Notes under the pieces: generated by a model
Databases searched by the model: none
Seen by the model: the letters and a program-made list of their open reading frames with translations, nothing else
Told to the model about the DNA's origin: nothing
Program-made: the position numbers and the translations under genes
Part shown: positions 3,764 through 24,081 of the stretch, one piece after another
How positions within the stretch are numbered: position 1 is the first letter of the stretch
Layout of the letters: every line of letters starts with the position of its first letter
NCBI GenBank assembly: GCA_017521195.1
Contig: JAFXGP010000088.1
Location: forward strand, 75,203 to 111,840
Direction of reading: 5' to 3'
Length of the DNA stretch: 36,638 bases
Source of the DNA: Lachnospiraceae bacterium
GTDB lineage: Bacteria; Bacillota; Clostridia; Lachnospirales; Lachnospiraceae

Positions 3764-3779
3764 CTTCTCACTTATCTCC

Positions 3780-5606: not shown

Positions 5607-5623
5607 AAGTTCAACCTTTCTTC

Positions 5624-6757
5624 TTATCTTGAAGCATAAAACTCTTTCACTGCATTACTGATATAATCTACTTCCTCAAGACTCAAGGCATAGTACATAG
5701 GAAGTCTTGCAAGACGTTCACTTTCTTTAGTGGTATATACATCTTCTCCATGAAAACGGCCATATTTTAATCCTGCCGGTGCACTGTGAAGAGGAATATA
5801 ATGAAATACGGTTAATACGTCTTTTTTCTTCATAAAATCAATAAATTCAGTTCTTTCTTCCAAATCTTTAGCCTTTAAATAAAACATATGGGCATTATGA
5901 ACACATCCTTCAGGAATAGTTGGCAACTCAATATATCCATTTTCTTCTAACTCTTTCAGATTCTCATAATAACGATTCCAACATTCTAATCTCTTACGAT
6001 TCATCTCTTCGGCAAGTTCCAGCTGAGCCCAAAGATAAGCTGCATTCATATCACTTGGAAGATAACTGGAACCAAAATTTACCCATGTATATTTATCTAT
6101 CTGTCCACGGAAAAATTTACTGCGATTAGTGCCTTTTTCCCTGATAATCTCTGCTTCTTCAATATATTTTTCATTCTGAATCAGGATTGCTCCGCCTTCT
6201 CCCATACTGTAGTTCTTTGTTTCATGGAAACTGTAGCATCCGAAATCACCAATGGCTCCCAGCGCCTTTCCTTTGTAAGTTGACATAACACCTTGTGCTG
6301 CATCTTCAATTACCCACAGATTATGTCTTTTTGCAATATCCATAATGGTATCCATTTCACAGGAAACTCCTGCGTAATGTACCGGTACTATTCCCACGGT
6401 TTTTTCAGTAATGGCCGCTTCAATTTTCTTTTCATCAATGTTCATGGTGTCCGGACGGATATCCACAAATACCGGCACCGCACCTCTAAGTACAAAAGCA
6501 TCTGCTGTAGACACAAAAGTAAAGGATGGCATAATTACCTCGTCTCCCGGTTTCACATCCATCAACAAAGCTGCCAGCTCTGTTGCATGAGTACAGGATG
6601 TGGTAAGCAATGCCTTCAGAGTTCCTGTATTTTCCTCAATCCATTGGTTACACTTTTTGGTAAACTGCCCATCACCACAGATTTTCTGTGCATCCACCGC
6701 TTCTTTCATATATTGCATTTCTTTTCCTGTAAAAGGAGGCACGTTAAAACAAATCAT
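5624..6757 (-). CDS. wecE: dTDP-4-amino-4,6-dideoxygalactose transaminase (WecE/RffA type)
   Basis: A 377-residue DegT/DnrJ/EryC1/StrS aminotransferase that closely follows E. coli WecE along its length: FNVPPFTGKEM near the start, CGDGQFT at 27-33, GDEVIMPSFTFVSTADAFVL at 71-90, EDAAQGVMSTYKG at 151-163, FHETKNYS at 177-184 with PLP lysine K181, and HGEDVYTTKESERL near the C-terminus. The known reaction is glutamate-dependent amination of dTDP-4-dehydro-6-deoxyglucose to dTDP-Fuc4N. A longer reading to 6805 is possible, but ATG 6757 matches the family N-terminus and lies 1 bp past the stop of the gene before it, so I chose it. No rmlA or rmlB gene is in the window, so the dTDP-sugar precursor must come from elsewhere. 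Confidence 0.93.
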   Translation of the reverse strand: MICFNVPPFTGKEMQYMKEAVDAQKICGDGQFTKKCNQWIEENTGTLKALLTTSCTHATELAALLMDVKPGDEVIMPSFTFVSTADAFVLRGAVPVFVDIRPDTMNIDEKKIEAAITEKTVGIVPVHYAGVSCEMDTIMDIAKRHNLWVIEDAAQGVMSTYKGKALGAIGDFGCYSFHETKNYSMGEGGAILIQNEKYIEEAEIIREKGTNRSKFFRGQIDKYTWVNFGSSYLPSDMNAAYLWAQLELAEEMNRKRLECWNRYYENLKELEENGYIELPTIPEGCVHNAHMFYLKAKDLEERTEFIDFMKKKDVLTVFHYIPLHSAPAGLKYGRFHGEDVYTTKESERLARLPMYYALSLEEVDYISNAVKEFYASR

Positions 6758-6758
6758 T

Positions 6759-10154: not shown

Positions 10155-11906
10155 TTAACGTTCTCTGGAGACTTTACCTTTTTCTACTCTGTATACAATG
10201 TCACATTTTTCAATCGTCTGAAGTCTGTGAGCAATAATAATCAACGTCTTCTTACCATGAAGTCTGTTGATAGATTCCATAATAGCTGCTTCTGTATCAT
10301 TATCCAATGCTGAAGTGGCTTCATCCAACACCAACACTTCCGGATCTTCAAACAAAGCTCTTGCAATACCGATACGCTGTCTTTGTCCTCCTGATAAACG
10401 GATACCACGTTCTCCGATTCCCGTATCCAAACCTTCCGGCAGACTCTTTACAAATTCATCCAGCTGGGCCTCTTTTAACACAGCCCACACTCTTTCGTCA
10501 TCAATATCTTCGTCTGCAATACCGAAGGCTACATTTTTACGGATAGTGGAATCAATCATAAAGATGGTCTGGGGAATATATCCGATATTCTTCAACCATT
10601 CTTCATAATGTTCTTTTACATCTACACCATCAGCAGTAATCTTTCCTGTTTCTAATTCCAAAAGTCCAAGCAGAATATCTACTACCGTAGTTTTTCCGGA
10701 ACCGGAACTTCCCACAATACCTACTGCCGAACCAACCGGAATGTCCATATCTGCATGATCGAAAATCAGCTGTTCACTATTGGGATATTTGTAGGTAATG
10801 TCTTTCAATTCTATCTTATCTTTAATATCCAACTTTTCTACAATCTTCTTATGATTATAAGCTTCCACATCGTATACCATGTTTTCATCATGAATTTCTT
10901 CCTGCAAATGATCACTTACACCCATAAAGAATGGTTCGAAGTAAGAAATACTGGTGAGATAATTGTTGATTCTATTAGCACTTGGAATCAGACGCATAGC
11001 AGCCATACCAAAGGTGGTAAGCTGCGGAATCATTTCCGTTACCGTTGCTCCCTGCAACATTACAATCATCATATAAAGCACTAGTCCCGCAATACATACC
11101 GTTTCAATCAGTAATCTTGGAGTAGAATTAAACAGATTATATTTCTGAACTGCATTTACATAACCAAATCCGCATTTTGCATATTCATTAATAAAATACT
11201 GTTCCTTATTGGCAATCTTAATTTCTTTGATTCCCATAACTGACTGCTCAATCCATTTGTACAACCCACTGTAATAGTCCTGATTGTCCTGACCGGCTTT
11301 TACCATAATTGGTTTTAACACTACTTTAATCAAAAGCAAAACTACTATCAGTAATGCTGCAATCGTCATAATCATCTTTGCGTCTACAATCAAAAGCACA
11401 GCCACCAGACAGGCAAAAACCACACCTTCACTGATTAATTGCAACACACTTAAAATCAATCCATACATATTATTTACATCAGATGTAATATTTCTCTGAA
11501 TTACAGCAGTATCCGCATTCAAATAATATTCATAGGGACGCTTCATAAAATTAATCATCATTCGTCTGGAAGTAGCAAATTGATTGGTATAAACAAATCG
11601 AAGCTGAACTACATTTTGTAAAAACAAAAATAGATTTTTCAAAACGAAAGCTCCAATCAAAGCCACCAACATAACTACCGTAAACTGAGTTACATTCTGC
11701 AAATGCAAACCATTGTAGATAGCCGCAAGAAGCTGATTGGTTTCTATAGCCTTAGGATCAAGCAATACACTTACCACCGGAATTACTACGGAAATACTTA
11801 AACTTTCCAGCACACCACCAATAAGCATAAGAAATACAATCACCACCATAACTCTCTTTTGCTTGGCATCTAAAAGCTTGTTCATCTTTTTGAATATCTT
11901 TACCAT
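10155..11906 (-). CDS. ABC transporter, fused permease-ATPase (lipid-linked glycan flippase type)
   Basis: A 583-residue half-transporter. The first 330 residues hold six hydrophobic segments (ABC type-1 exporter domain). The ATPase part has Walker A GSSGSGKTT (about 396-404), signature LSGGQRQRIG (about 500-510), Walker B VLVLDEATSALD (about 515-526) and a switch histidine in IIIAHRLQ. The size and fusion fit PglK/WlaB/MsbA-type flippases, which move undecaprenyl-diphosphate oligosaccharides outward. No Wzx-type flippase gene is in the window, so this may serve the main polymer. It is the first gene of the left operon; the start has TAGGAGAAAAAG before ATG. The substrate is inferred from location, since the exporter fold alone does not show it. 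Confidence 0.9.
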   Translation of the reverse strand: MVKIFKKMNKLLDAKQKRVMVVIVFLMLIGGVLESLSISVVIPVVSVLLDPKAIETNQLLAAIYNGLHLQNVTQFTVVMLVALIGAFVLKNLFLFLQNVVQLRFVYTNQFATSRRMMINFMKRPYEYYLNADTAVIQRNITSDVNNMYGLILSVLQLISEGVVFACLVAVLLIVDAKMIMTIAALLIVVLLLIKVVLKPIMVKAGQDNQDYYSGLYKWIEQSVMGIKEIKIANKEQYFINEYAKCGFGYVNAVQKYNLFNSTPRLLIETVCIAGLVLYMMIVMLQGATVTEMIPQLTTFGMAAMRLIPSANRINNYLTSISYFEPFFMGVSDHLQEEIHDENMVYDVEAYNHKKIVEKLDIKDKIELKDITYKYPNSEQLIFDHADMDIPVGSAVGIVGSSGSGKTTVVDILLGLLELETGKITADGVDVKEHYEEWLKNIGYIPQTIFMIDSTIRKNVAFGIADEDIDDERVWAVLKEAQLDEFVKSLPEGLDTGIGERGIRLSGGQRQRIGIARALFEDPEVLVLDEATSALDNDTEAAIMESINRLHGKKTLIIIAHRLQTIEKCDIVYRVEKGKVSRER

Positions 11907-12258: not shown

Positions 12259-13329
12259 TTAAATAGCATCATTTTGCCTATGAAGTTCCGGTGCTTCATA
12301 TCTGTCCATAAAATCTTCTCCCAAAAAGAGGATTTCATCTGCATTTTTAATAGAATCAGGCACTGTAAATACCGTGATTACTTTATTCCAACGGATTCCT
12401 GGAATAAAATTCATAATTTCCATAGGGAATTTTCCCTCAATCACAATTTGTTCCTTAAATAGCTTTTTGTAATCCAACAAATCTCTTGGATGAGGTTTTA
12501 TGAATACTTCTGCACCATTGGCATACTCTTCAATAATGTCTTTGAATAACCGTTCCCTGGTTTTCAAATCGCACAGTGGTTCTGAAAGGAGAAGGACTTT
12601 TTCTTTGGTTTTATCTCCCTGCGAAATCTGTCCCATCAAACTATCCACATTTTCCATAAAGATTTCAACCAATAAATGCTTATCTTCTTCCCGGATTCCG
12701 GCCACCAGTTCTTCTCTTGGCTTTTCAATATATTTCTCGCAAGGATATTGCAAACAGGCAATGTTGTTTACTTCCATATCCAGACAATATTTTGCATATC
12801 CGTTTTGAATAAAAATCCAGTTCCAGGAAGCAAGCTTTGCTTTCAATTCAAAATGTCCCCTGTTATCATATCTGGCAGTATCATAGTGCTTAATACAATC
12901 CAATCCATCTTCCAGAGCATGATAATAAATCTTTTTATAAGATAAGTAATATCCGATAGGATCTGAATCGCAAAATACATAAATATCTTTATATTCCTTA
13001 AAATCCACCGGAATATACGGTTCCTGCATTTTTCCCAGCATCTTGGTATATATCATTCTGGCAAGCATATTTATGACAATGTTCCCACGATCCACATGAT
13101 ATTTTTGAAGTTGTGGGAAACAACTGTCTTCCTTTTCATGGTATTCCACCACCTTTTCAAAAAGCCCTGATCTCAATGCCCTTTCTTTTAAATTGCCAAA
13201 ATCATTGGACATGGTACTTAAAACCAATGTTGCTCCCCCTCTTTTTTCTAAAGGAAGATTACATTCCTTTAATACCGATATATATACATGATAAAAGGTA
13301 TGACATACGTAAATTCTTTCTTTTCTCAC
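12259..13329 (-). CDS. Sialyltransferase-like glycosyltransferase (GT52/polysialyltransferase type), likely nonulosonic acid transferase
   Basis: A 356-residue soluble protein, counting from GTG 13329. Two motifs shared by bacterial sialyltransferase families GT38/GT52 are visible: EDG at about 140-142 (in YYHALEDGLD) and HP at about 280-281 (in IKPHPRD), followed by a serine-containing stretch FTVPDSI. The N-terminus (YVCHTFYHVYIS) resembles the first strand and helix of these enzymes. They move sialic-type sugars from CMP donors. It directly follows pseF, which makes such a donor, and the decarboxylase-like gene, so pseudaminic acid is the likely donor sugar. A TTG at 13344 is possible, but GTG 13329 has GGGAG eight bases upstream, overlapping the previous stop. 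It was recognised from motifs and context only, so specificity is inferred. Confidence 0.72.
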   Translation of the reverse strand: MRKERIYVCHTFYHVYISVLKECNLPLEKRGGATLVLSTMSNDFGNLKERALRSGLFEKVVEYHEKEDSCFPQLQKYHVDRGNIVINMLARMIYTKMLGKMQEPYIPVDFKEYKDIYVFCDSDPIGYYLSYKKIYYHALEDGLDCIKHYDTARYDNRGHFELKAKLASWNWIFIQNGYAKYCLDMEVNNIACLQYPCEKYIEKPREELVAGIREEDKHLLVEIFMENVDSLMGQISQGDKTKEKVLLLSEPLCDLKTRERLFKDIIEEYANGAEVFIKPHPRDLLDYKKLFKEQIVIEGKFPMEIMNFIPGIRWNKVITVFTVPDSIKNADEILFLGEDFMDRYEAPELHRQNDAI

Positions 13330-13334
13330 TATTT

Positions 13335-14540
13335 TTACTCCCAATGGTACTTTTGCATATATTCATCATTTGTCCATGGTTCTCTCGCCTGGTACAAACT
13401 TCCATCAACTTTTTCAATCCAAATTGCAGGGAAATAATGAATAAATAAAGGATTCAAACACATGGTATATCCACCGGCCGTATCATATACAATCCGGTCT
13501 CCCGGCTGCAATGCTACATCATCCACAATTTCAAACAAGCGGTCATATTCCATACAGGTGGCACCGCATACCCACTGGCTTTTTACGATATCTCTGTTGC
13601 TTGTGTCTGTGCCATAAACCATATGATGAGGATACACATGACGGGTTACCAACGGATTTAAATTCACACGGCTTCCGTCCGTTACAATAAATTTGTGATT
13701 TCGGATATCCTTGACATCCAAAACCGTAGTCTCAAAACTCATTCCTCTGGAAATCAGAGAAACCCCCGGTTCTGCAATAATTTTAGTTTTTTCAGGATTA
13801 AAATATTCCCTTAATTCTTTTCCGATTTCTTCAAAATAATTCAGATAATTAGGCTTATCATCCCTTCCACCGAAATAACCGCCACCCATATCTACAAATT
13901 CAAGGTTTAAATCATATTCCTTCGCAATCTTAACTGCCATTTTAGCCAAAGCACCATACACTTTTACGGTTCTGGACTGGGTAGAAGAATGTAGATGAAG
14001 TCCTGTCACTTTCACATTAGGAAAACTCTGTACAATATCAATGGCTTCTTTTAATTTCCCATTTTCATAGCAGTAACCAAATCTTCCGCCCTCTTCTTCC
14101 ACCAACTGTTCTTCCGGGCAAAGACTTCCAATATCACAATTTACACGAAGGCCTACCTTAAACTCTCTCTCCGGATATGTTTTGCTCATTTCCCCAATCC
14201 ACTGCAATTCATAAGTAGAATCAAAATTCACATATCCTCCTCCAAGAAGGACCTGTTCCCAAACTTCTCTGTCTTTGATGGGACTATTATAAACAATTTT
14301 ATCATCCGTATAGCCTAACCTTTTAGCAATATCGTACTCCATGTCCGATACTACTTCCGCATAAAAACCATATTCCTTCAGATATCTCAATAACCATGGA
14401 AGGGAATTGGTCTTTACGGAATATCCCATGATGAAATTGCCCCAATTATTTGTTAAGGCTTCTTTCAACAAATTAATATCATACAATAAATCTTTTTCTT
14501 TTACCCGATAAAAAGGAGTCTGCAATTTATTTGTCTCCAT
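13335..14540 (-). CDS. PLP-dependent decarboxylase-like enzyme, fold type III (LysA/BtrK/ODC-like)
   Basis: A 401-residue protein with the alanine-racemase-like barrel and C-terminal domain of the group IV decarboxylases. Visible landmarks are PLP lysine K43 (GYSVKTN), GLHLHSSTQSR at 180-190, the glycine-rich phosphate loop MGGGYFGG at 218-225, EPGV at 257-260, C329 and D333 in CMEYD, and Y358 in GGYTM. The usual EPGR arginine is replaced by valine, which sets it apart from typical DAP and ornithine decarboxylases. It overlaps pseF by 14 bp and is followed within a few bases by the sialyltransferase-like gene, so it belongs to nonulosonic acid metabolism here. Decarboxylation of an amino acid or aminoacyl group is likely; the substrate is unknown. 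Its own lysine-biosynthesis role is unlikely in this context. Confidence 0.85.
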   Translation of the reverse strand: METNKLQTPFYRVKEKDLLYDINLLKEALTNNWGNFIMGYSVKTNSLPWLLRYLKEYGFYAEVVSDMEYDIAKRLGYTDDKIVYNSPIKDREVWEQVLLGGGYVNFDSTYELQWIGEMSKTYPEREFKVGLRVNCDIGSLCPEEQLVEEEGGRFGYCYENGKLKEAIDIVQSFPNVKVTGLHLHSSTQSRTVKVYGALAKMAVKIAKEYDLNLEFVDMGGGYFGGRDDKPNYLNYFEEIGKELREYFNPEKTKIIAEPGVSLISRGMSFETTVLDVKDIRNHKFIVTDGSRVNLNPLVTRHVYPHHMVYGTDTSNRDIVKSQWVCGATCMEYDRLFEIVDDVALQPGDRIVYDTAGGYTMCLNPLFIHYFPAIWIEKVDGSLYQAREPWTNDEYMQKYHWE

Positions 14541-15228
14541 CTTTGTTTCTCCTTAAATATTTAATTTCTGCAATTTCCCAATCCTCCAAAGTGTCAATAT
14601 CCTGCACTTCCATTTCCGCTAGTACCAATGGCACTAATTTTTCTACATCGGTAGTTCCTGCCTCCATAAACGGAAGGGTTCTGCAAGCATAAAACTGACC
14701 ACAATCATGATATATTTTCTGTAAATCCTGACTTCTTGCAGTAGCATATTCCGGGAACTGTCTTTCTACATACCCTTCTTCATTCACAATTAATCCTCTT
14801 TGCGGAGGATAGGAAAAAGGTACCACAGGCATTACCGAATCTGCAGTGTCCAGCAGTTCCATGGCTTCTTTCAAACGCTCAGCCGTAATAAAAGGAGCCG
14901 TAGGATAAATACAGCAAAAGCTGTCAAAATATTGTCCTTGTTTTTTATATTCTTTTAAAACTTCCATAATTACTTCATCGGTAGACGCATAATCATTTGC
15001 CGTGGCTTCGCTTCTCATAAAAGGCACTTTGGCACCTGCCTGTTTTGCAAGCATTGCAATTTCTTCATCATCAGTAGACACCATAACTTCATCAAAAACT
15101 CCCGCATGCAATGCTGCTTCTATAGAATAAAAGAGGATTGGTTTTCCACAAAATTCCTTAATATTTTTTCTGGGAATTCTTTTACTTCCTCCTCTTGCCG
15201 TAATCATTGCCAATCGTTTTTCTACCAT
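14527..15228 (-). CDS. pseF: CMP-pseudaminic acid cytidylyltransferase
   Basis: A 233-residue CMP-sugar synthetase. The nucleotide loop ARGGSKRIPRKN is at 11-22, then GKPILFYSIEAA and VMVSTDDEEIA. CCIYPTAPF (about 105-113) and RSQDLQKIYHDCGQFY (about 164-179) are hallmarks of PseF rather than NeuA. It activates pseudaminic acid with CTP, the final cytoplasmic step. It is the first gene of a three-gene minus-strand unit and is divergent from pseI across a 220-bp gap. An AGAAGGACG ribosome site precedes ATG 15228. The donor it makes would be used by the sialyltransferase-like protein two genes downstream. Confidence 0.93.
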   Translation of the reverse strand: MVEKRLAMITARGGSKRIPRKNIKEFCGKPILFYSIEAALHAGVFDEVMVSTDDEEIAMLAKQAGAKVPFMRSEATANDYASTDEVIMEVLKEYKKQGQYFDSFCCIYPTAPFITAERLKEAMELLDTADSVMPVVPFSYPPQRGLIVNEEGYVERQFPEYATARSQDLQKIYHDCGQFYACRTLPFMEAGTTDVEKLVPLVLAEMEVQDIDTLEDWEIAEIKYLRRNKDGDK

Positions 15229-15448
15229 GTTTTTTCGTCCTTCTCTCTTTTTGTCTCAACTTTTATTTACAAACTTTATTTTTCTTTTTTTATCTATGAA
15301 CTCATATATTTCATAATTCAAACATGTATGTTATATATATTCTTTTACAGTATACACCATATTTTCCTTCAAAGAAACAAATTTGATTGCCTTATTTTTT
15401 TAAATTGTTTATACTATTAGTACTTATTTCGACGAAAGGAACTATTCC
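15229..15448. promoter_or_regulatory. Divergent promoter region between pseF and pseI
   Basis: This AT-rich gap serves both directions. On the plus strand a promoter TTGCCT (15387-15392), 17-bp spacer, TATACT (15410-15415) lies 33 bp before pseI, whose ribosome site GAAAGGA is at 15434-15440. On the minus strand a TATACT (plus 15349-15354) is a candidate -10 for pseF, but I see no convincing -35 at the right distance, and the pseF leader would be about 120 nt. No gene is supported in the gap. Confidence 0.55.
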
Positions 15449-16501
15449 ATGAACAAACAATTTAAAATTGGAAATAAATTAGTAGGCGAAAACGCCCCTG
15501 CCTTTATCGTGGCAGAAATCTCCGGCAATCACAATCAGGATTATCAGCGTGCCGTTGAAATTATCCATGCTGCCAAAGAAGCCGGTGCAGATGCCATAAA
15601 ATTACAGACCTACACCGCAGATACCATTACCTTGGATTGCGATGAACCCTGTTTTGTAATTAATGAAGGAACTATCTGGGACGGCATGACTCTCCACAAA
15701 TTATATCAGGAAGCTTATACTCCTTGGGAATGGCAGCCCCGCTTAATGGAAGAAGCTAACAAAATCGGCTTGGAATGTTTTTCCTCACCTTTTGATTTTA
15801 CATCTGTAGATTTCTTAGAAAAAATGAATGTTCCGGCATATAAAATTGCCTCTTATGAAATCAACGACATTCCTTTAATCCGAAAAATTGCAAAATTACA
15901 CAAACCTATGATTTTTGCTACCGGAATTGCTTATCCGGAAGACATAGAACGTGCTTTAGCAACCTGTAAAGAAGAAGGCAATGAAGATATTATTTTATTA
16001 AAATGTGTGTCTTCTTATCCAACTCCTTACGAACAGGTAAATTTACGTGTGATTCCTACCTTAGCCAAAACTTATGATTGTATCAGCGGAATTTCGGACC
16101 ACACCATGGGAACTATTGTTTCTGCAGGCTCCATTCCTTTAGGTGCAAAAATGATAGAAAAACATCTGACCTTAAGCCGTGCTGACGGTGGACCGGACGC
16201 AGCCTTCTCCATGGAACCAAAAGAATTTGCCAAATTGGTAGAAGAAGTCCGAATCTTAGAAAAGGCTTTGGGATGCAGTGAATATGTTTTAACCGATACT
16301 CAGAAATTAGAACACGGCGGCTCCCGCTCTCTGTTTGTGGTAAAAGACATTCAGCCGGGAGAAATTCTGACTCCGGAAAACATCCGTTCCATTCGTCCGG
16401 GAAATGGTCTTCACACTATGTATTATGAAGAAATTTTAGGAAAAACAGCAAAATCGTTCTTAAAGAAAGGAACACCGCTTGCATGGGAACTGATTCAGTA
16501 A
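15449..16501 (+). CDS. pseI: Pseudaminic acid synthase (NeuB family)
   Basis: A 350-residue NeuB-family protein. The N-terminal TIM barrel begins with FIVAEISGNHNQDY (about 20-33), continues with DAIKLQTYTADTITL and GISDHTMG, and a C-terminal SAF (antifreeze-like) domain starts near GGSRSLFVVKDIQPGE. PseI condenses 2,4-diacetamido-2,4,6-trideoxy-L-altrose with phosphoenolpyruvate to give pseudaminic acid. GNHNQ and DADAIKLQT-like positions fit PseI/LegI/NeuB, and the neighbouring pseB, pseC, pseF and pseG point to pseudaminic acid. It is the first gene of a two-gene plus-strand unit and overlaps pseG by 19 bp. Confidence 0.93.
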   Translation: MNKQFKIGNKLVGENAPAFIVAEISGNHNQDYQRAVEIIHAAKEAGADAIKLQTYTADTITLDCDEPCFVINEGTIWDGMTLHKLYQEAYTPWEWQPRLMEEANKIGLECFSSPFDFTSVDFLEKMNVPAYKIASYEINDIPLIRKIAKLHKPMIFATGIAYPEDIERALATCKEEGNEDIILLKCVSSYPTPYEQVNLRVIPTLAKTYDCISGISDHTMGTIVSAGSIPLGAKMIEKHLTLSRADGGPDAAFSMEPKEFAKLVEEVRILEKALGCSEYVLTDTQKLEHGGSRSLFVVKDIQPGEILTPENIRSIRPGNGLHTMYYEEILGKTAKSFLKKGTPLAWELIQ

Positions 16502-17568
16502 TTTACATCCGTACAGATGGTAACTCAAAAATAGCCACCGGGCATCTTGTCCGGTGTCTTTGTATTGCTCAGGCTTTGGAATCTTTAAATAAGTCTGTAT
16601 GTTTTCTGGTTTCTGATTACGACAGTTTTTCCTTATTAAAAGCTTTAGCTGCATCTGTTTTTAGTGGATATACATTTTCTTTTGATGTGAAAATATTAAA
16701 AAACAGCTGTTATGATAATTTAGAATTGGAACTTGAGGAACTTGGCGGTTTGCTAAATTCTTCATTAAATAAACCTATAATTTTTGTAGATTCTTATTTT
16801 GTGACCGAAGATTATTTTTCTTATTTAAACAAATTTGCAAAAGTTGCCTATATGGATGATTTAAGAGCTTTTGATTACAAGGTTGATTTACTTGTGAATT
16901 ATGATGTAATACCACCTGCCAGAGAGCAGGAATATGAGCTTTCCTACACCAATGCAGGTATCTCTCTGTTAGGTGCAGAATATACACCTTTACGCAAACA
17001 ATTTCAGAATCAGGAAGTATCTTTGCACAACCAAATAAAAAAAATCCTGATTACTACCGGTGGAAGTGATCCATATGACTTCACCTTCACACTTTCTAAG
17101 TATTTATTATCTCTGGAATTAGCATTGGAACTTCATGTGGTTGTAGGAAGATTATTTAAAAATACAGACTCTTTAGAAGAATTAACCAAACAATATCCAT
17201 CCCTTCACTTACATTACAATGTCGGTGATATGGCTTCTCTTATGAAACAGTGTGATTATGCTGTTTCTGCTGCCGGAACTACCTTATACGAATTATGCGC
17301 TTTAGGAATTCCTGCTGTCAGCATTTCCATGGCAGATAACCAGATTCCTATGTCCAAAACCTTTGCTGAAGTTGATGCGGTTCCTTATGTGGGAGATATC
17401 AGAGTACAGAAATATGAAGATATGGATTTCATCCTTCACCAAATTTCTAATCATTTAATTTCTTTATGCGAGGATTCTTCCAAAGCTCATCTTCAGCATA
17501 ATAAAATGCGCCGTCTAATTGATGGAAACGGAGCTATTAAAATCGCTGAAGAATTGTGTAAATTATGA
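16483..17568 (+). CDS. pseG: UDP-2,4-diacetamido-2,4,6-trideoxy-L-altrose hydrolase
   Basis: A 361-residue GT-B-fold protein. The N-terminal loop IRTDGNSKIATGHLVRC (about 9-25) matches the PseG signature, with H21 in the place of the catalytic histidine. The C-terminal half has TTGGSDPYDFT and SAAGTTLYELCALGIPA, as in PseG and MurG-like nucleotide-binding domains. It removes UDP before the PseI step. The start ATG 16483 lies inside pseI, with AAAGGA about 11 bp upstream, so translation is coupled. Many TTA and TTT codons give it a somewhat more AT-rich look than its neighbours. The gene is convergent with the ATP-grasp gene, and the two share a terminator. Confidence 0.9.
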   Translation: MGTDSVIYIRTDGNSKIATGHLVRCLCIAQALESLNKSVCFLVSDYDSFSLLKALAASVFSGYTFSFDVKILKNSCYDNLELELEELGGLLNSSLNKPIIFVDSYFVTEDYFSYLNKFAKVAYMDDLRAFDYKVDLLVNYDVIPPAREQEYELSYTNAGISLLGAEYTPLRKQFQNQEVSLHNQIKKILITTGGSDPYDFTFTLSKYLLSLELALELHVVVGRLFKNTDSLEELTKQYPSLHLHYNVGDMASLMKQCDYAVSAAGTTLYELCALGIPAVSISMADNQIPMSKTFAEVDAVPYVGDIRVQKYEDMDFILHQISNHLISLCEDSSKAHLQHNKMRRLIDGNGAIKIAEELCKL

Positions 17569-17595
17569 TCTTGTAGATTTATCAATTAAACAACA

Positions 17596-17650
17596 AAAAA
17601 CGAAAGCACTACCTGTTTTTTTCGCAAGGTAGTGCTTTCCTTATTTTTCA
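17596..17650. terminator. Bidirectional terminator between pseG and the ATP-grasp gene
   Basis: A perfect 13-bp stem, GAAAGCACTACCT (17602-17614) with AGGTAGTGCTTTC (17627-17639), and a 12-nt loop. On the plus strand it is followed by CTTATTTTTC; on the minus strand it is followed by a G-interrupted T-run (GTTTTTTG). It lies in the 86-bp gap between two convergent genes, so it can end transcription from both sides. Confidence 0.92.
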
Positions 17651-17654
17651 TTCT

Positions 17655-18848
17655 TTATTTCGTTGTAACAAACAACTTTTTAATAGTTTCGGCTATTTCT
17701 TTCAATGCTTCTTCGTTTTCTCCCTCCAAAACAAAATATCCTCTTCCCATCAGAGAATGACCATCGGATACTTTTGAAAGAATATCTCCCGCATTAATAT
17801 TACATTGCCAAATTACAGGTTTTATTCCCAGCACCTTTTCGATTTGTTCCACATCCGGCACCGCCTGTACTTCTCCTTCCAAATCAAAGTAATGAATCAT
17901 CATCATCTTGGTCTTTTCAGGAACAAAATTACATCCTAATCCCATGCGGTGTTTGATATATTCCTCTGCCACATCCACACCGGTACACAATGGAGTAAAC
18001 AGATTATGCAAATTATGGCCGGAAGGTCTTGCTGACATTTCTATCATAAAAGGACCGTCCCCTGTACAGATTAAATCTGCATGCAAAAGACATTCCTGTA
18101 ATTCCAACGTTTTTACAGTCTTTTCCATAAAGGCCTTTACCTGTCCATAAAACTCATCTTCCGGCATTACTGAAAAATAAGCTACTGCCTGGCGTGCCGG
18201 TAAGGGAGTATTTTCTTTATGTCGAAGCAGTACAAAATAGAATGTTCCATCAATAACAGCCCCATCCAAGCCATATTCTTCACCCTTTGCACACTCTTCC
18301 AACACATAGCTTTCGCCACAGGTAACTTGCAAAGCTTTTTTCAGTTCCTGCATATCATTTACAAAATGAATACCACGGCTTCCGGAACCATATCTGGGTT
18401 TTAAAATGGCGGGAAATTGCAGATTGTACTCTCCGCACCCTATCTGCTCAAATAACTTTTTTCTTTCTTCCGGGGATTCTTTCGCTTCCAGACATACACA
18501 ACCTCTAAGACCATTTTCTTCCATTTTTTGATGAAACAATAACTTATCGGTACAATACATTGCCTGTTTTTTTCCAATTCCCGGCAATTTCAAAGTATCG
18601 TTTACACTTCCTATGGTAGTCAGATATCTTCCGATAGGAACAGTCAATACAAAATCAATTTTTTCCTTTTCCACGCACTGAATCGTTTCTTCTTCTCGAG
18701 AAATATTCACCACAACAGCTTCATCCGCTACTGCCAATCCTTCTGCTTTTTCATTCCCATCCAACGCAACTACTGTCAGATTATACTCTTTTGCTTTTTT
18801 AATCGTATGCAAAGATTCCGAACTGGCACCTATAATTGCTGCTTTCAC
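17655..18848 (-). CDS. ATP-grasp ligase of unknown substrate in the pseudaminic acid cluster
   Basis: A 397-residue ATP-grasp protein. The N-terminal preATP-grasp fold starts AAIIGASSES and VVALDGN. ATP-binding landmarks are K102, ILKPRYGSGSRG (148-159, K150), YVLEECAKGEEYG (181-193), HADLI (256-260) and IEMSARPSGHN (269-279), the last with metal-binding E270 and N279. Such enzymes join a carboxylate to an amine or thiol through an acyl phosphate. The gene is the last of the membrane protein-pseC-GT2 unit and faces pseG. No step of the known pseudaminic pathway needs it, so a tailoring role (amide link of an amino acid to the sugar, or charging of a carrier) is inferred. The start is GTG 18848 with GGGAGA seven bases upstream. 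Confidence 0.85.
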   Translation of the reverse strand: MKAAIIGASSESLHTIKKAKEYNLTVVALDGNEKAEGLAVADEAVVVNISREEETIQCVEKEKIDFVLTVPIGRYLTTIGSVNDTLKLPGIGKKQAMYCTDKLLFHQKMEENGLRGCVCLEAKESPEERKKLFEQIGCGEYNLQFPAILKPRYGSGSRGIHFVNDMQELKKALQVTCGESYVLEECAKGEEYGLDGAVIDGTFYFVLLRHKENTPLPARQAVAYFSVMPEDEFYGQVKAFMEKTVKTLELQECLLHADLICTGDGPFMIEMSARPSGHNLHNLFTPLCTGVDVAEEYIKHRMGLGCNFVPEKTKMMMIHYFDLEGEVQAVPDVEQIEKVLGIKPVIWQCNINAGDILSKVSDGHSLMGRGYFVLEGENEEALKEIAETIKKLFVTTK

Positions 18849-18885
18849 TTTTTGTCTCCCATCTTTTATCTAACAACTTACTTTT

Positions 18886-19917
18886 TTATTTACCGGCTAT
18901 CTTTTTTCTAAAATTACGGTACGCCCACAAAAGCTTATAATACACCACAAAATACAGGGTTGATTTCATATGCATATCTATCAGCTTTCTTTCTTCGGCA
19001 TGAACTCTGGTTAAATAATACTTATTCTTTCTAAAATCCGGAAAAGTCTTCTTCATTTCCTCACCCATAGCTTTTATAAAAGAAATTTCCTGCTTTTTTA
19101 CACCCATCATATAAGAAAAGAGTGTGTTTACATAAAACAATGTGGTAAAACTGCTTTCTATTTCTTCTTTATATTCATCCAGAAAACCAAATTGTTTTGC
19201 TTCCGCTACCATAATTCTGGCTGCTTCCATACGGTCCTCACATCGTTTCTTGGTAATGGTATGTACCGTAGAAGCATTATGCTGATAATAATAGTACATG
19301 GGTTCCTGAATGTACTCAAAATGTTTTGCCCTAAGCATCCAGGAATTACTGATGGCATTATCCTCATAGAAAATTCCTTCCGGAAAACGGTTTGGATAAT
19401 CGAATATAATCCCACGCCTGTAGATTTTTACTACCAAACTCCCGCCATCTAAAATCAAAGACTGATATTTTTCTTTCGTTAATATTCCAGCTTGCTCCGG
19501 TTTATTATTGTGAACCACTTGTCCGATTTTCATAGAATGTTCATTAGTCAAATGATAATCACATCCCACCATATCAGCGCCTGTTTCTTCTGCTTTCTTT
19601 AAAAGCTTTTCATAATAATCCTTGGTTATCCAATCATCACTGTCAATGAAACCAATCCATTCACCCTTAGCAATTTCAAGTCCCAGGTTTTTAGCTCCGC
19701 CTTGTTTTTTATTAACATGAGAGGCTATAACCTTAAATTTGTCAGGGTATTTTGCTTCATATTGTCTCAAAATCTCCAGAGAATTATCCGTAGAACAATC
19801 ATCTACTGCGATAATCTCATAATCGTTAATTGTCTGATTCACCAGAGATTCTAAACAATATTCAAGTTTACCATCAGATGCCATGTTGTAAACAGGAACA
19901 ATAATACTTAACTGCAT
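18886..19917 (-). CDS. Glycosyltransferase family 2
   Basis: A 343-residue GT2 enzyme: SIIVPVYN at the N-terminus, AVDDCSTDNS at about 37-46, and FIDSDDW at about 92-98 carrying the metal-binding acidic residues. It has no clear membrane segment, so it acts at the cytoplasmic face. The C-terminal part is basic, ending RKKIAGK. It sits between pseC (39 bp) and the ATP-grasp gene (37 bp) with AGGAGA before ATG 19917. It probably adds one sugar of the repeat unit; donor and acceptor cannot be told from sequence. Confidence 0.88.
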   Translation of the reverse strand: MQLSIIVPVYNMASDGKLEYCLESLVNQTINDYEIIAVDDCSTDNSLEILRQYEAKYPDKFKVIASHVNKKQGGAKNLGLEIAKGEWIGFIDSDDWITKDYYEKLLKKAEETGADMVGCDYHLTNEHSMKIGQVVHNNKPEQAGILTKEKYQSLILDGGSLVVKIYRRGIIFDYPNRFPEGIFYEDNAISNSWMLRAKHFEYIQEPMYYYYQHNASTVHTITKKRCEDRMEAARIMVAEAKQFGFLDEYKEEIESSFTTLFYVNTLFSYMMGVKKQEISFIKAMGEEMKKTFPDFRKNKYYLTRVHAEERKLIDMHMKSTLYFVVYYKLLWAYRNFRKKIAGK

Positions 19918-19956
19918 AATATATCTCCTAAATCTTCTAAGGAATTTTCAGCAACA

Positions 19957-21150
19957 TTACTTCTTATAATAATCTACAATCTTCTTCACAGCTTTAATAA
20001 CGTCTTCGACGTCTTTATCTGTCATTCCATAGTAAAGCGGCAAGCTCATCATTTCATCATATAATCTTTCTGCTTTTGGACAAATTCCTTTTTCATATCC
20101 CAATCTCTGATAATGCGGGAAATAGTAGGTTGGAATATAGTGTACATTACACATAATATTTTCTGCTGCCAAAGCATCAAAAAATTCTCTGCGGTTAATG
20201 GTTAACATTTCCGGTTTGATTCTTAAAATATATAAATGTCTTGTAGTGTCAGATTCCGGTATTTCTTCCTGCACCTGAATTTCAGGCATCTGTAAGAAAG
20301 CTTCATCATATTTTGCAACAATTTCTTTTCTTCTCTCAGAGAACATGGGAAGCTTATCCAACTGGCTAATCAAAAGACCAGCCTGAATGTCTGTCATACG
20401 ATAATTATATCCCAAAGATACCTGTTCATAGTACCAGCCACCATGTGGTTCTTCTTCCATAAGTGCAGTATCACGGGTAATACCATGAGAACGGGCAAGA
20501 AGAAGTTTCTGATAATATTCTTCGTTATTGGTCATAACAGCTCCGCCTTCGCCACCGGTTACTGTTTTTACCGGATGGAAACTAAAAGTTGTCATATCTG
20601 CAATAGAACCATTAGGTTGTCCTTTATATTTAGTACCAATAACATGAGCACCGTCTTCAATTAACACAAGATTATGTTCTTTACAATGCGCCATAAGCTT
20701 GTCTAATTCTACCGACTGCCCTGTAAAGTCAACTGCTACTACCGCTTTTGTCTTATCTGTGGTTGCTGCTTTTACTTTTTCAGGGTCAATGTTATAAGTT
20801 TTATCATTAATATCCGCAAATACCGGTTTTGCACCACAGTATAAAGCACAGTTAGCACTGGCTGCAAAAGTAATCGGTGTAGTAATTACTTCATCCCCGG
20901 ATTCCACACCTGCTGCCATACATGCCATATGAAGTGCTGCAGTTCCGTTACTGCATACTACTGCATACTTTGCACCTGTAAGTTTACATAACTTCTCTTC
21001 CAATTCTGTAATCTTAGGCCCACATGTTAAATAATCGCTTTTCAAAACATCTACTACTGCCTGAATATCAGCATCATCAAGATATTGATGTCCATAATAT
21101 AATTTTGTATCTCTTACAGGAGTTCCTCCACAAATCGCAGGTTTATTCAT
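19957..21150 (-). CDS. pseC: UDP-4-amino-4,6-dideoxy-N-acetyl-L-altrosamine transaminase
   Basis: A 397-residue DegT/DnrJ/EryC1 aminotransferase of the PseC type: GHQYLDDADIQAV near 20-32, SDYLTCGP at 38-45, CSNGTAALHMA at 66-76, IEDGAHVIG with D166, and FHPVKTVTGGEGG with PLP lysine K195. PseC aminates the keto sugar made by PseB, using glutamate. It is clearly different in sequence from the WecE-type enzyme at 5624. A LegC or PglE role cannot be excluded from motifs alone, but PseB and PseG-like partners support PseC. The start ATG 21150 has AAAGGAC. It follows the 564-residue membrane protein by 36 bp. Confidence 0.9.
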   Translation of the reverse strand: MNKPAICGGTPVRDTKLYYGHQYLDDADIQAVVDVLKSDYLTCGPKITELEEKLCKLTGAKYAVVCSNGTAALHMACMAAGVESGDEVITTPITFAASANCALYCGAKPVFADINDKTYNIDPEKVKAATTDKTKAVVAVDFTGQSVELDKLMAHCKEHNLVLIEDGAHVIGTKYKGQPNGSIADMTTFSFHPVKTVTGGEGGAVMTNNEEYYQKLLLARSHGITRDTALMEEEPHGGWYYEQVSLGYNYRMTDIQAGLLISQLDKLPMFSERRKEIVAKYDEAFLQMPEIQVQEEIPESDTTRHLYILRIKPEMLTINRREFFDALAAENIMCNVHYIPTYYFPHYQRLGYEKGICPKAERLYDEMMSLPLYYGMTDKDVEDVIKAVKKIVDYYKK

Positions 21151-21186
21151 TTTCTTAGTCCTTTCCGGCTTCTTCGCCCTTGGTGC

Positions 21187-22881
21187 CTACTTAGGCACAA
21201 TACCATCTTTTATATCTTCACTTACGAGTTCACTTCTTCTCATCATAAATTGGTAACATGTACTTGGGAAATTATGATAACTGTTAATTTCCCCTTCTTC
21301 TTTTATATTGCTACTGTAATAAATTATATTACCTTTACTTTCTATGATATCCGTAGTTGAATGGTCATAATCCTTCTGCACAATATAATAAGGATCCATT
21401 AATCTTTGTTTTACAAACACACCATCATCTGTCACATAATGATCTACATATGGACTGAGGCAAAGGAACAGACAAAATACCAGGCAACCAGTTGCAATAC
21501 TCTGGAATCCCTTTTTCTCATAATCAAACCAGCTTGCCATTCCTACCAATGGTATTACCAACAAAAAACCTAAACCATATCGAATAAATGGCGCCAATAA
21601 AAACCAAACCAATGCAGATGCCAACATTGCCAAATAAAGCACAATTAACTCTACTCTGATTTCTATTTTTTTAATCCATTTATAACCCAAGTTAAACATG
21701 GCCAAAATAATACCAAGCACGTTAGAGCCTAAAAACATCTTTGCATATCTTTCCTGATTTTCCCACCAGATTGGAAGCCATTCCGTAATAGGCATATCTA
21801 TTAAACCGACATCAAACAAACAGCGTCCCCACACTTTAATCTGATAAGCATCCACCAATAAATATTCCAACGGCACTTTCCACTCTACATTAAAAAGATC
21901 TATTGCTTCAAAAGGATAAATTAACCATCCTGAAAGAATGACGTTTCGAATCAAATAAGGAGCTAATGTAAAAATACCCATTCCCAGATAAATACCGATA
22001 TCTTTCCATTTCTTTTCTTTCAACAAGAAAAATGCAGGATAAATTACTACGAGAACCATGGATATTGCAGATAACTTCATAGTCCCCAGAAAAACTGCAA
22101 ATACAGATAATAATGCATAAACCGAATAATGGGCCCTTTCTTCAATCGCTCTCAACCACACACTAATCATATAAATTGATAAAAACATGGTTGGATAATC
22201 GGTTGCCGGTGACATACTTCCGGTAACATTAATCAAAGCATAAAACAAAATCGCTACACAGCCGGCATCTTCCAGATGACTCTTGCGTTCTTTAAAAGTC
22301 TTTAAATGATGAAGGGCATACAAACATAATATCACTTCTACAAATCCGGTCGTTGTATGGAGCGACCAAGGTAACAACCAGGCCATACTTAAAACAGCTG
22401 CAAAGGCGAGATATAAACTGTTATATCCATAATGCAACTGCATATTTGCCATACCTTTTATAATCCCATATTCTTCGTACAAACGGATATTCTGTGCGTG
22501 ATAGATACCGGTATCTGTATGGAATTTCCCACGGGAAGTAAAAAATGCTATTAAAAGAATGAAGCAGAAAAAGAAAAATCCTTCCCAAGAAAATATCAAT
22601 TTTTTCGTCTTAGGAATTACTTCTCTGATTTCTTTTCTGCATCCCCATCCACTGATAATTGCTAAAAGTAACAATAGTAAATGCACTATCATTCCTACTT
22701 TGTAAACAATACTTGCAAAAGCGGCATAAATGGTAATTCCTACAATTCCGGTTACCAAATAATCAATAATCTGAAACTGCCATTTCCTTTTCAAAGCTTT
22801 CGCTAGTAGTTTTTCTATTCCTATTCCAATCATTCCGCAAAGCATAAAGTAATAAATCCAACTAAGCATTACAACTACCAT
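21187..22881 (-). CDS. Polytopic membrane protein, possible polymerase or GT-C-like transferase
   Basis: A 564-residue protein with about 12 or more hydrophobic segments. A loop at about 120-152 reads HTDTGIYHAQ, then YGIIKGMANMQLHYGYN. The acidic and histidine residues followed by GxAN and GYN look like a conserved active loop found in several uncharacterised Gram-positive cell-surface glycan membrane proteins. The end is polar. I cannot name the family with certainty. It heads the unit with pseC, a GT2 gene and the ATP-grasp gene, so it may act on the nonulosonic-acid-containing glycan outside the membrane. A strong GGGAGGAAAAGC ribosome site precedes ATG 22881. Confidence 0.7.
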   Translation of the reverse strand: MVVVMLSWIYYFMLCGMIGIGIEKLLAKALKRKWQFQIIDYLVTGIVGITIYAAFASIVYKVGMIVHLLLLLLAIISGWGCRKEIREVIPKTKKLIFSWEGFFFFCFILLIAFFTSRGKFHTDTGIYHAQNIRLYEEYGIIKGMANMQLHYGYNSLYLAFAAVLSMAWLLPWSLHTTTGFVEVILCLYALHHLKTFKERKSHLEDAGCVAILFYALINVTGSMSPATDYPTMFLSIYMISVWLRAIEERAHYSVYALLSVFAVFLGTMKLSAISMVLVVIYPAFFLLKEKKWKDIGIYLGMGIFTLAPYLIRNVILSGWLIYPFEAIDLFNVEWKVPLEYLLVDAYQIKVWGRCLFDVGLIDMPITEWLPIWWENQERYAKMFLGSNVLGIILAMFNLGYKWIKKIEIRVELIVLYLAMLASALVWFLLAPFIRYGLGFLLVIPLVGMASWFDYEKKGFQSIATGCLVFCLFLCLSPYVDHYVTDDGVFVKQRLMDPYYIVQKDYDHSTTDIIESKGNIIYYSSNIKEEGEINSYHNFPSTCYQFMMRRSELVSEDIKDGIVPK

Positions 22882-22964
22882 TGCTTTTCCTCCCTACACA
22901 TCAATTCTTAACCGATATAGGCATTCGGAAATATGTTTTAACAATTTTAAAATCACCTACTTCG

Positions 22965-22993
22965 ATTATATAAAATTTAAGATTGAAGAGCAA
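22965..22993 (-). promoter_or_regulatory. Candidate promoter of the membrane protein-pseC unit
   Basis: On the minus strand a perfect TATAAT (plus 22965-22970) is 17 bp from TTGCTC (plus 22988-22993). It lies 84 bp before the membrane protein start and overlaps the terminator stem-loop of pseB. The -35 has only TTG in common with the consensus, so support is moderate. Confidence 0.45.
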
Positions 22994-23016
22994 CTAAATG
23001 CCATTCAATCTTAAAT
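22971..23016 (-). terminator. Terminator after pseB
   Basis: A perfect 13-bp stem, ATTTAAGATTGAA (22975-22987) with TTCAATCTTAAAT (23004-23016), has a 16-nt loop. It starts 12 bp past the pseB stop, and on the minus strand it is followed by TTTATATAAT. It is AT-rich with a mixed T-tract, so it may leak. The remaining bases to the next gene (22882-22964) hold no gene. Confidence 0.65.
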
Positions 23017-23028
23017 ATTATTGCTTAT

Positions 23029-24027
23029 TTATTTTTCCAATTCTACCGTTTTTAACAATTCACGAATTTCTTCCACTGTAAGCCATTCTGTATTGTTATC
23101 GGAGCTGTAGGAAAATCCTTCCGGAACTTTCTTGCCGCTCATGTTTGGTTTCTGTCTGTTGTTCCATACCATCTGTGGATATACAATGAAATGTTTGTCG
23201 TATTCATATGTTGTCATGGAATCTTCTACTGTTACCATGATTTCATGTAATTTTTCACCTTCACGGATACCTACTTCAGGTTTTTTGCATCCCGGCATCA
23301 TCGCTTCTGCCAAATCCGTAATTTTGAAAGATGGAATTTTGCTAATGAAGGTTTCTCCACCGGTTGCTTCTTCCAACGCTTTAATTACAAGTTCCACACC
23401 CTGAGTTAAACTAATCCAGAAACGTGTCATTCTGTAATCTGTAATCGGAAGTTCTGTTCCGCCATTTTTAATCACACTGTTAAAGAATGGAATTACAGAA
23501 CCGCGGCTACCCGCAACGTTACCATAACGTACGATAGAGAAGTTAATATCTTTTTCTCCTGCATAAGCATTAGCTGCAATAAACAATTTATCGGATACTA
23601 ATTTAGTTCCGCCATATAAGTTAACAGGGTTTACAGCTTTGTCGGTAGAAAGAGCAACTACTTTTTTCACAGTATCGCTGTCAAGAGCTGCTTCAATTAC
23701 ATTCTGTGCACCTTCGATGTTAGTCTTAATAGCTTCGTTTGGATTGTATTCGCATGCCGGAACCTGTTTCATAGCTGCTGCATGAATTACATAATCTACG
23801 CCAACGAAAGCTCTCTTCATTCTGGCAAGATCTCTAACATCACCGATAAAGAAACGGAGCTTGTCCTGATATTCTTTGAACTCATTCTGCATCATCCACT
23901 GTTTGAATTCATCACGGGAATAGATGATAATCTTTTTAGGATTATAATTTTTTAATACATATTTTGTAAAGCATTTACCGAAGGAACCTGTTCCTCCTGT
24001 TACTAAAATTGTTTTATTATTTAACAT
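23029..24027 (-). CDS. pseB: UDP-N-acetylglucosamine 4,6-dehydratase (inverting)
   Basis: A 332-residue soluble extended SDR, the usual length for PseB/FlaA1. The dinucleotide loop is TGGTGSFG at 10-17, then IIIYSRDEFKQ and FFIGDVRDL. Catalytic residues are visible as D129, K130, Y138 and K142 (STDKA...NLYGGTK). HAAAMKQVPACEYNP is a PseB signature. It converts UDP-GlcNAc to the 4-keto-6-deoxy-L-altrose intermediate, the first pathway step. A longer reading to 24066 exists, but ATG 24027 has GAGAGGAC just upstream and fits the family N-terminus. It seems to form its own unit, with its own promoter and terminator. Confidence 0.95.
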   Translation of the reverse strand: MLNNKTILVTGGTGSFGKCFTKYVLKNYNPKKIIIYSRDEFKQWMMQNEFKEYQDKLRFFIGDVRDLARMKRAFVGVDYVIHAAAMKQVPACEYNPNEAIKTNIEGAQNVIEAALDSDTVKKVVALSTDKAVNPVNLYGGTKLVSDKLFIAANAYAGEKDINFSIVRYGNVAGSRGSVIPFFNSVIKNGGTELPITDYRMTRFWISLTQGVELVIKALEEATGGETFISKIPSFKITDLAEAMMPGCKKPEVGIREGEKLHEIMVTVEDSMTTYEYDKHFIVYPQMVWNNRQKPNMSGKKVPEGFSYSSDNNTEWLTVEEIRELLKTVELEK

Positions 24028-24081
24028 AATGTCCTCTCTTCTGAATACCTTCCTTGTTGTATACATGTAAAATTAAAACAT

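Follow-up and report, generated by a model that had tools for sequence, protein, structure and literature searches.

A pseudaminic acid gene cluster of Lachnospiraceae without pseH, carrying an ATP-grasp ligase and a fold-III decarboxylase: a proposed variant of nonulosonic acid biosynthesis

In the canonical systems of Campylobacter and Helicobacter, CMP-pseudaminic acid (CMP-Pse) is produced by PseB, PseC, PseH, PseG, PseI and PseF. The cluster described here lies in a stretch of 36,638 nucleotides (the window) from a Lachnospiraceae bacterium, part of a 111.8-kb contig (JAFXGP010000088.1, positions 75,203 to 111,840; assembly GCA_017521195.1), and shares PseB, PseC, PseG, PseI and PseF with the canonical systems, whereas it is without pseH and encodes an ATP-grasp ligase and a pyridoxal phosphate (PLP)-dependent decarboxylase (DC) of fold type III in addition. 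The DC/ATP-grasp cassette is taken to define a new version of the nonulosonic acid pathway. Specifically, the product of the cluster would be a pseudaminic-series CMP-nonulosonic acid whose 7-N acyl group derives from an amino acid, through ligation and then decarboxylation on the sugar, and replaces the usual acetyl group, a reading to which a probability of roughly 0.47 can be attached.

The closest described systems each share a part of this arrangement. Firstly, in butirosin biosynthesis the ATP-grasp enzyme BtrJ is the partner of the carrier protein BtrI and the decarboxylase BtrK, a sequence of ATP-grasp enzyme and then fold-III decarboxylase that resembles the one proposed here, although butirosin uses a carrier protein and the carrier proposed here is a nucleotide sugar. 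Secondly, BtrK and its relatives FigC, SbnH, AcsE and MccE decarboxylate amino acids that are attached through their side chains to citrate, a nucleotide-peptide or a carrier protein, according to the available portions of the source (PMC7857480). Thirdly, as the accessible text of two reports on the type B flagellin of C. difficile has it, the PF13535 protein CDR20291_0245 is required for a terminal, amino-acid-capped Fuc3N, and its locus includes an FdtB-like aminotransferase (PMC5207246, PMC5207245). Likened by that description, capping of an amino sugar by a PF13535 protein is common to C. difficile and the present proposal, whereas the sugar is a different one, no nonulosonic acid is involved, and no decarboxylase is mentioned in the portions available. 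In Shewanella, the ATP-grasp_4 protein SfmE is described, in the part of the report that is accessible, within a Pse-type pathway in which Pse is mono-acetylated and PseH is not clearly present, and the flagellin glycan carries a moiety of 236-264 Da on a mono-acetyl nonulosonic acid (PMC3765264). An ATP-grasp_4 protein without a clear PseH is, by this description, a trait shared with the window, in contrast to the Shewanella five-gene operon, which as there presented is without a decarboxylase of the DC fold. Lastly, Leg5GluNMe7Ac of C. botulinum, a nonulosonic acid with an N-linked glutamyl group as cited in the available sections of two papers (PMC5207245, PMC13317340), offers an undecarboxylated chemical parallel to the proposed product, though it belongs to the legionaminic series and its glutamyl group is N-methylated and sits at position 5. 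Searches of the open-licence literature returned nothing joining ATP-grasp, pseudaminic acid and a decarboxylase, nothing joining 4-aminobutyryl with pseudaminic, and nothing joining ATP-grasp with bacillosamine; the word "grasp" was likewise not found in the accessible portion of a report on Pse in Clostridium (PMC13317340).

An earlier note on this DNA had listed PseB, PseC, PseG, PseI and PseF, and all five score above their NCBIfam equivalog cut-offs. On the minus strand, PseB, the inverting UDP-GlcNAc 4,6-dehydratase (23029-24066; TIGR03589, 537.4 bits, cut-off 407.75), and PseC, the 4-aminotransferase (19957-21150; TIGR03588, 469.2 bits, cut-off 423.5), form a strand unit whose last gene is that of the ATP-grasp carboxylate-amine ligase, the proposed replacement of PseH (17655-18848; PF13535, 6.1e-12). 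PseI, pseudaminic acid synthase (15449-16501; TIGR03586, 475 bits, cut-off 340.25) and the only NeuB-family match in the genome, and PseG, the UDP-sugar hydrolase (16483-17568; TIGR03590, 186 bits, cut-off 153.55), are encoded on the plus strand. A second minus-strand group consists of PseF, CMP-pseudaminic acid synthetase (14527-15228; TIGR03584, 282.9 bits, cut-off 205.7), DC, an alanine-racemase-fold PLP decarboxylase with an EPGV variant motif (13335-14540; PF02784/PF00278), and a GT52/alpha-2,8-polysialyltransferase-like glycosyltransferase (12259-13344; PF07922, 1.1e-10; PF07388, 2e-6), which is the probable transferase of the CMP-activated product. The three open reading frames (ORFs) overlap end to start, DC sharing 14 nt with pseF and 10 nt with the GT52 gene where start codons are taken from the ORF calls, so that the positions earlier claimed for the ligase, at the end of the pseC unit, and for the decarboxylase, overlapping pseF, are both borne out.

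Conservation of this arrangement was assessed by a scan of GTDB contigs with DC, from which the best 80 of 165 relatives were taken as named loci, the fetched stretches ending at contig ends or at 10-kb flanks. Most of these 80 are assigned to Lachnospiraceae or to one of its genera (Butyrivibrio, Eisenbergiella, Parablautia), and the others are unplaced Clostridium, Eubacteriales, Bacillota or bacterium. Carriers of the cassette, among them Butyrivibrio hungatei, Eisenbergiella tayi and Parablautia intestinalis, are mostly gut and rumen bacteria. Within the fetched stretches, DC is accompanied by PseI in 76 loci, PseF in 76, PseG in 73, GT52 in 66, ATP-grasp in 65, a GT2 glycosyltransferase in 55, PseC in 29 and PseB in 11. 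For 14 of the 15 loci without an ATP-grasp in the stretch, the genome encodes one at another place, in two cases interrupted by an in-frame stop and in some cases fragmented; both enzymes are present in 79 of the 80 named genomes, the single genome without the ligase being a 1.8-Mb assembly. The earlier note had made its inference depend on co-occurrence with pse genes in other genomes, and the pairing holds across the 80 named loci. PseF is the immediate 5' neighbour of DC, in the same orientation, in 44/81 cases, and in 21/80 loci (between L138 and L163), mostly of Butyrivibrio, PseF and DC form one ORF of 631-677 codons. In loci L231 and L232 the ATP-grasp gene holds one in-frame TAA, possibly through decay or an assembly error, and DC, PseI, PseF and PseG are kept.

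Similarly, in a family sample of 299 genomes, the window's own included, of which 67 are PseI-positive, relatives of DC at E<=1e-40 occur in 17 genomes (own included), while DC at >=52% identity occurs in eight (own included), with ATP-grasp on the same contig in 8/8; these eight cassettes also hold pse genes and GT2, plus GT52 where the contig reaches. A close ATP-grasp (E<=1e-45) is found in 13 of the 299 genomes, every one of them PseI-positive (p=1.3e-9), and within the 67 PseI-positive genomes the association of DC with ATP-grasp carriers gives p=2e-7. The range of DC looks narrow, since a draw of 398 genomes from the phylum yielded DC at E<=1e-40 in five, including the window genome and another of its family. 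Taken together, DC and ATP-grasp constitute a real, conserved and narrowly distributed module linked to pse genes.

A point missing from the earlier note is that the cluster is without pseH: there is no GNAT within 8 kb of PseI. The PseH model (TIGR03585) matches six GNATs in the genome at E<=0.001, none above the cut-off of 93.1, the best of them being encoded in the window itself (3218-3763, minus strand; 71.4-71.6 bits). This GNAT has a different companion. The window also encodes a WecE-like dTDP-4-amino-4,6-dideoxygalactose transaminase (5624-6805, minus strand; TIGR02379, 651.8 bits, cut-off 434.85), and when 165 loci were searched for the window GNAT, a WecE homologue lay within 4.2 kb in 12 of the 13 that hold one, genome G206 being the sole exception; in genome G100, the GNAT stands near WecE on a contig other than that of the pse cassette. 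The WecE linkage in 12/13 loci is why this GNAT is best read, from its sequence context, as the acetyltransferase of a dTDP-4-amino-sugar branch, probably in a unit serving 4-acetamido-4,6-dideoxy-galactose, and why it is not the preferred candidate for PseH. Between the WecE homologue and the GNAT, within 3218-6805, a membrane protein is encoded, and the spacing of about 1.8-1.9 kb is repeated in several relatives.

Because no acetyltransferase gene is found in the cluster, the ATP-grasp enzyme probably fills the PseH step, acylating the 4-amino sugar. The earlier note had held the two additional enzymes to be unnecessary for CMP-Pse, and on this point it is not supported: the pair is probably required, and not supplementary, because it covers that step. 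Support for such a role can be found in 60 PseI loci of the family (59 genomes) without cassette DC, in which ATP-grasps and GNATs were scored by profiles and queries built from these control loci and the window. An ATP-grasp, of the cassette kind or of a second type described below, lies within 5 kb of PseI in 18/60 (weakly in L220), and a GNAT lies within 5 kb in just 1/18 of these loci against 17/42 of the others (Fisher p=0.006, the genomes not being independent; a limit of 3 kb gives p=0.012 and one of 8 kb p=0.005). In none of 83 cassette loci, six of which duplicate named loci, does a GNAT come within 8 kb of PseI. ATP-grasp and PseH-like GNAT tend to exclude each other in the Pse loci of this family that are without cassette DC. 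Leaving aside the second type and the weak match of L220, ATP-grasps occur in 13 Pse loci without cassette DC. More distant ATP-grasps lie beside PseI in ten loci where cassette DC is absent (L170, L175, L179, L180, L184, L185, L194, L195, L215 and L216), and these may attach other acyl groups, likewise replacing PseH. A tree of 44 ATP-grasps groups 33 from cassettes with three DC-less rows (L167, L198, L221) at a support of 100/99, and two changes are needed to account for the DC label; given long-branch warnings on this tree, no claim of a single origin is made for the cassette ATP-grasps.

The ligase itself scores 45.9 bits on PF13535 (ATP-grasp_4; gathering score 27), and by profile it matches PDB entry 4dim first, followed by the L-amino acid ligases 3vot/30vh and BacD. 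Its residues K102, K150, E184, E270 and R274 are invariant in the 65 aligned sequences, the window included. DC has the expected two domains (PF02784 and PF00278) and is closest to FigC/FslC both by hidden Markov model and by solved structures: its best NCBIfam model is FslC (144.7 bits, below the cut-off of 500) and its best PDB chain is 7kh2, N-citrylornithine decarboxylase. When DC from 79 named loci and the window is aligned, K43, R132, H184, G219-221, E257 and C329 are invariant in 80/80, and E257 is the glutamate at N1 of PLP. The catalytic residues of both enzymes are intact, as had been noticed earlier from the window. The FigC residues named in the available part of its description, K63, R151, H198, G237-239 and C354 (PMC7857480), correspond to K43, R132, H184, G219-221 and C329 of DC by a mapping made partly by hand. 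The replacement of EPGR by EPGV, also noticed earlier, extends across the aligned sequences, the position of FigC R290 being Val in 74/80, Ile in 6/80 and Arg in none. It is not taken as the sign of a dead enzyme, given that the contact of R290 to the PLP phosphate is through the backbone, as the same source states in its accessible portions (PMC7857480), that the other catalytic residues are intact and that Val or Ile is conserved. DC therefore shares its fold and the catalytic Lys, His, Arg, Gly-loop and Cys with the clade of FigC/FslC, SbnH, AcsE, MccE and BtrK, and differs from FigC/FslC in its low model score, in Val/Ile at the Arg290 position and in its sugar-pathway context.

DC reaches 122.9 bits on the LysA model TIGR01048, for which the cut-off is 297.9, and the "CES" loop of plant diaminopimelate (DAP) decarboxylases reads CME in 80/80; both the model scores and the invariant CME loop disfavour a DAP/lysine, ornithine or polyamine decarboxylase. 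The family-level likeness to LysA could still prompt the view that the pair is a remnant of lysine or polyamine biosynthesis, present in a surface locus by chance, and against this stand the same score and loop together with the linkage to pse genes across the named loci, which make it barely credible.

From these data we infer each reaction of the following pathway, as well as their order, the amino acid used and the final structure. PseB and PseC would form UDP-2-acetamido-4-amino-2,4,6-trideoxy-L-altrose, after which the ATP-grasp enzyme, in place of PseH, would activate an amino-acid carboxylate, most likely that of a Glu or Asp side chain, and join it to the 4-amine. PseG, PseI and PseF would convert the acylated sugar to the CMP-sugar. 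At or near the PseF stage, DC would form an aldimine with the free alpha-amine and remove the alpha-carboxylate from the sugar-bound amino acid. The resulting 7-N-(4-aminobutyryl) or 7-N-(beta-alanyl) Pse would expose a free amine at the end of its acyl chain, and the GT52-like enzyme would move it onto a surface glycan. The calculated mass is 377.18 Da for a Pse5Ac with 7-N-(4-aminobutyryl) and 363.16 Da for one with 7-N-(beta-alanyl), compared with 334.14 Da for Pse5Ac7Ac. Side-chain ligation leaves an alpha-amino acid end and therefore suits a fold-III decarboxylase, whereas ligation through the alpha-carboxylate would leave DC no substrate, save for an amino acid with a second centre of this kind. 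Late decarboxylation on the sugar is proposed because of this side-chain logic, the clade to which DC belongs and its fusions to PseF or, as described below, to a phosphoglycosyltransferase (PGT). The amino-acid-derived amide put forward in the earlier note stays the best reading, with the reactions themselves conjectural.

The two steps could also run in the reverse order, with DC first releasing a free omega-amino acid or similar small product that the ATP-grasp enzyme, standing in for PseH, then ligates to the 4-amino sugar, a sequence that might end in the identical sugar. Such a scheme fits the genomic pairing and the exclusion of GNATs equally well, and the PDB neighbours of the ATP-grasp enzyme include L-amino acid ligases and BacD, whose names imply action on free amino acids. 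It is nonetheless unlikely: the nearest clade of DC works on conjugated amino acids, DC is fused to enzymes that handle nucleotide sugars (PseF in 21/80 loci and PGT in one), and no fold-III enzyme is known to decarboxylate free Glu or Asp.

Decarboxylation on the sugar also bears on the butirosin parallel drawn in the earlier note, of which the succession of ATP-grasp enzyme and decarboxylase survives as the proposed logic and the carrier does not. A search for carriers covered ORFs of >=70 aa within 3 kb of cassette genes, and among the 18 most recurrent groups none has a median length below 130 aa, that is, a size suggestive of a carrier, although an unlinked carrier may exist. Of seven groups submitted to Pfam, three had no match and the others were an ABC transporter, a GT2 protein, an Acyl_transf_3 protein and a Spo0A_C protein; length and visual inspection served for the remaining 11. 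A butirosin-type carrier-protein route is rejected since none of these 18 groups is carrier-sized, and the sugar itself would for that reason have to be the carrier.

A second pairing of the same kind of enzymes is found on the same contig, about 4 kb to the left of the window start (L027:13073-15239). Here a paralogous DC, 39% identical to the cassette DC and with the motif EPGS, is followed directly, with no gene between, by an ATP-grasp of the PRK12767 type scoring above its cut-off, in a unit that also holds a PglF-like dehydratase, a LegC/PglE-like aminotransferase and a PGT. In the family, this second-type ATP-grasp adjoins DC in 7 of 11 loci with a non-cassette DC, PGT lying just 5' of DC in five of the seven; in L040 (9358-11442) PGT (PF02397) and DC are fused in a 694-codon ORF, followed by the second-type ATP-grasp. 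By hhalign the two groups of ATP-grasp are remotely homologous (probability 99%, identity 23%), and the two groups of DC are close (37% identity). An amino sugar is apparently produced in each of the two contexts, and ATP-grasp and DC lie beside its genes. A wider reading is that a portable ligate-then-decarboxylate module may replace CoA-dependent N-acetylation in at least two Lachnospiraceae pathways, those of PseB/PseC and of PglF/PglE-like enzymes, with the nucleotide sugar as carrier and zwitterionic glycans with a pendant amine as products, an extension that falls somewhat short of even odds.

The neighbourhood of this second module gives rise to a further possibility. A nucleotide-sugar dehydrogenase gene lies near it in L027, with look-alikes, by eye, in L035, L037 and L040, and sugar carboxylates could accordingly be available in both contexts; DC might then convert a basic amino acid into a free amine that the ATP-grasp enzyme couples to a sugar carboxylate, at C1 in the case of Pse or on a uronic acid in that of the second module. 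Fold-III decarboxylases often yield diamines, which favours such a route. It would, however, leave the PseH gap unexplained, as well as the ATP-grasps of the 13 Pse loci without cassette DC and the tendency of ATP-grasps to exclude PseH-like GNATs, and amidation at C1 would probably disturb the use of CMP-Pse, all of which makes coupling of a free amine improbable.

Several observations weigh against ligation followed by decarboxylation on the sugar. The genome is only 81.7% complete, and as far as the sequence shows, the acyl group under the proposed scheme may be either 4-aminobutyryl, from Glu, or beta-alanyl, from Asp. Seven of the nine genomes that have only a non-cassette DC carry PseI somewhere, and linkage is therefore more telling than co-occurrence. 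Among the control loci, 25/60 have neither ATP-grasp nor GNAT nearby, so that an unlinked acetyltransferase may serve in some; L198 alone has both (ATP-grasp at 10597-11787, GNAT near 11.8 kb); and L167, L198 and L221 hold cassette-clade ATP-grasps but no cassette DC. In the second context, no ATP-grasp lies next to DC in 4 of the 11 non-cassette loci, and the three DC loci added by the phylum draw show a weak second-type match (85 bits) in L244 and none in the other two, whose flanks are short. A hexapeptide acyltransferase gene is also found in L035, 3.7 kb beyond the second-type ATP-grasp; judging by its neighbours we take it to belong to another sugar, the acetyltransferase gap having been tested for Pse only. 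The described systems bring difficulties of their own: in the accessible portions of the C. difficile reports, the CDR20291_0245 mutant loses the entire terminal moiety, and a FemAB-like gene in the locus could form the amide (PMC5207246, PMC5207245), while in those of the Shewanella report the moiety is given as nitrogen-free, and clear PseG, PseI and PseF are lacking as well (PMC3765264).

A further point concerns the PseH model, whose cut-off is passed by just 9 of the 67 PseI-positive family genomes and missed by 58; G264, itself a cassette genome, is among the nine (94.8 bits), although its GNAT lies 1.9 kb from WecE. The model is thus insensitive in this family, and a sub-threshold score means little. 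It follows that the window GNAT, at 71.6 bits, or another of the six GNATs matched in the genome, may be PseH, in which case the cluster would make plain Pse5Ac7Ac while ATP-grasp and DC act on a neighbouring sugar or another metabolite. The position of this type of GNAT near WecE, the G100 arrangement included, and the joint occurrence of ATP-grasp and DC with PseF and PseI, render plain Pse5Ac7Ac distinctly unlikely.

If an amino-acid-derived 7-N acyl group is indeed attached and decarboxylated on the sugar, an ATP-grasp/decarboxylase route to N-acylation of amino sugars would stand alongside the GNAT and left-handed beta-helix (LbH) acetyltransferases, annotating such clusters as makers of Pse5Ac7Ac would be an error in cassette-bearing gut and rumen bacteria, and an unassigned branch of fold-III decarboxylases would gain a concrete substrate. 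By adding a free amine to an acidic nonulosonic acid, the route would moreover give the cell surface a different charge, and lectins and immune receptors would probably recognise it differently.

Two further genes lie within the pseB-pseC unit on the minus strand, one for a GT2 glycosyltransferase kept with the cassette (18886-19917; PF00535) and one for a LIC_10190-family membrane protein (21187-22881; NF047510, 290.3 bits, cut-off 100), for which Pfam gave no match. Scans for promoters (58, against 49.2, standard deviation (sd) 7.1, in shuffled sequence) and terminators (9, against 7.5, sd 3.0) were near expectation; the Rfam search gave no match and no tandem repeats were found. As for the acceptor of the glycan, the link to flagellin is unproven; the earlier note had pointed to nonulosonic acids with N-linked amino-acid groups on clostridial flagellins. 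A search with PF01973 found no match, a weak test as the model matched archaeal controls only. The genome holds six flagellin-domain matches, and set against these is the cassette's own GT52/polysialyltransferase-like enzyme, encoded amid surface-polysaccharide genes.

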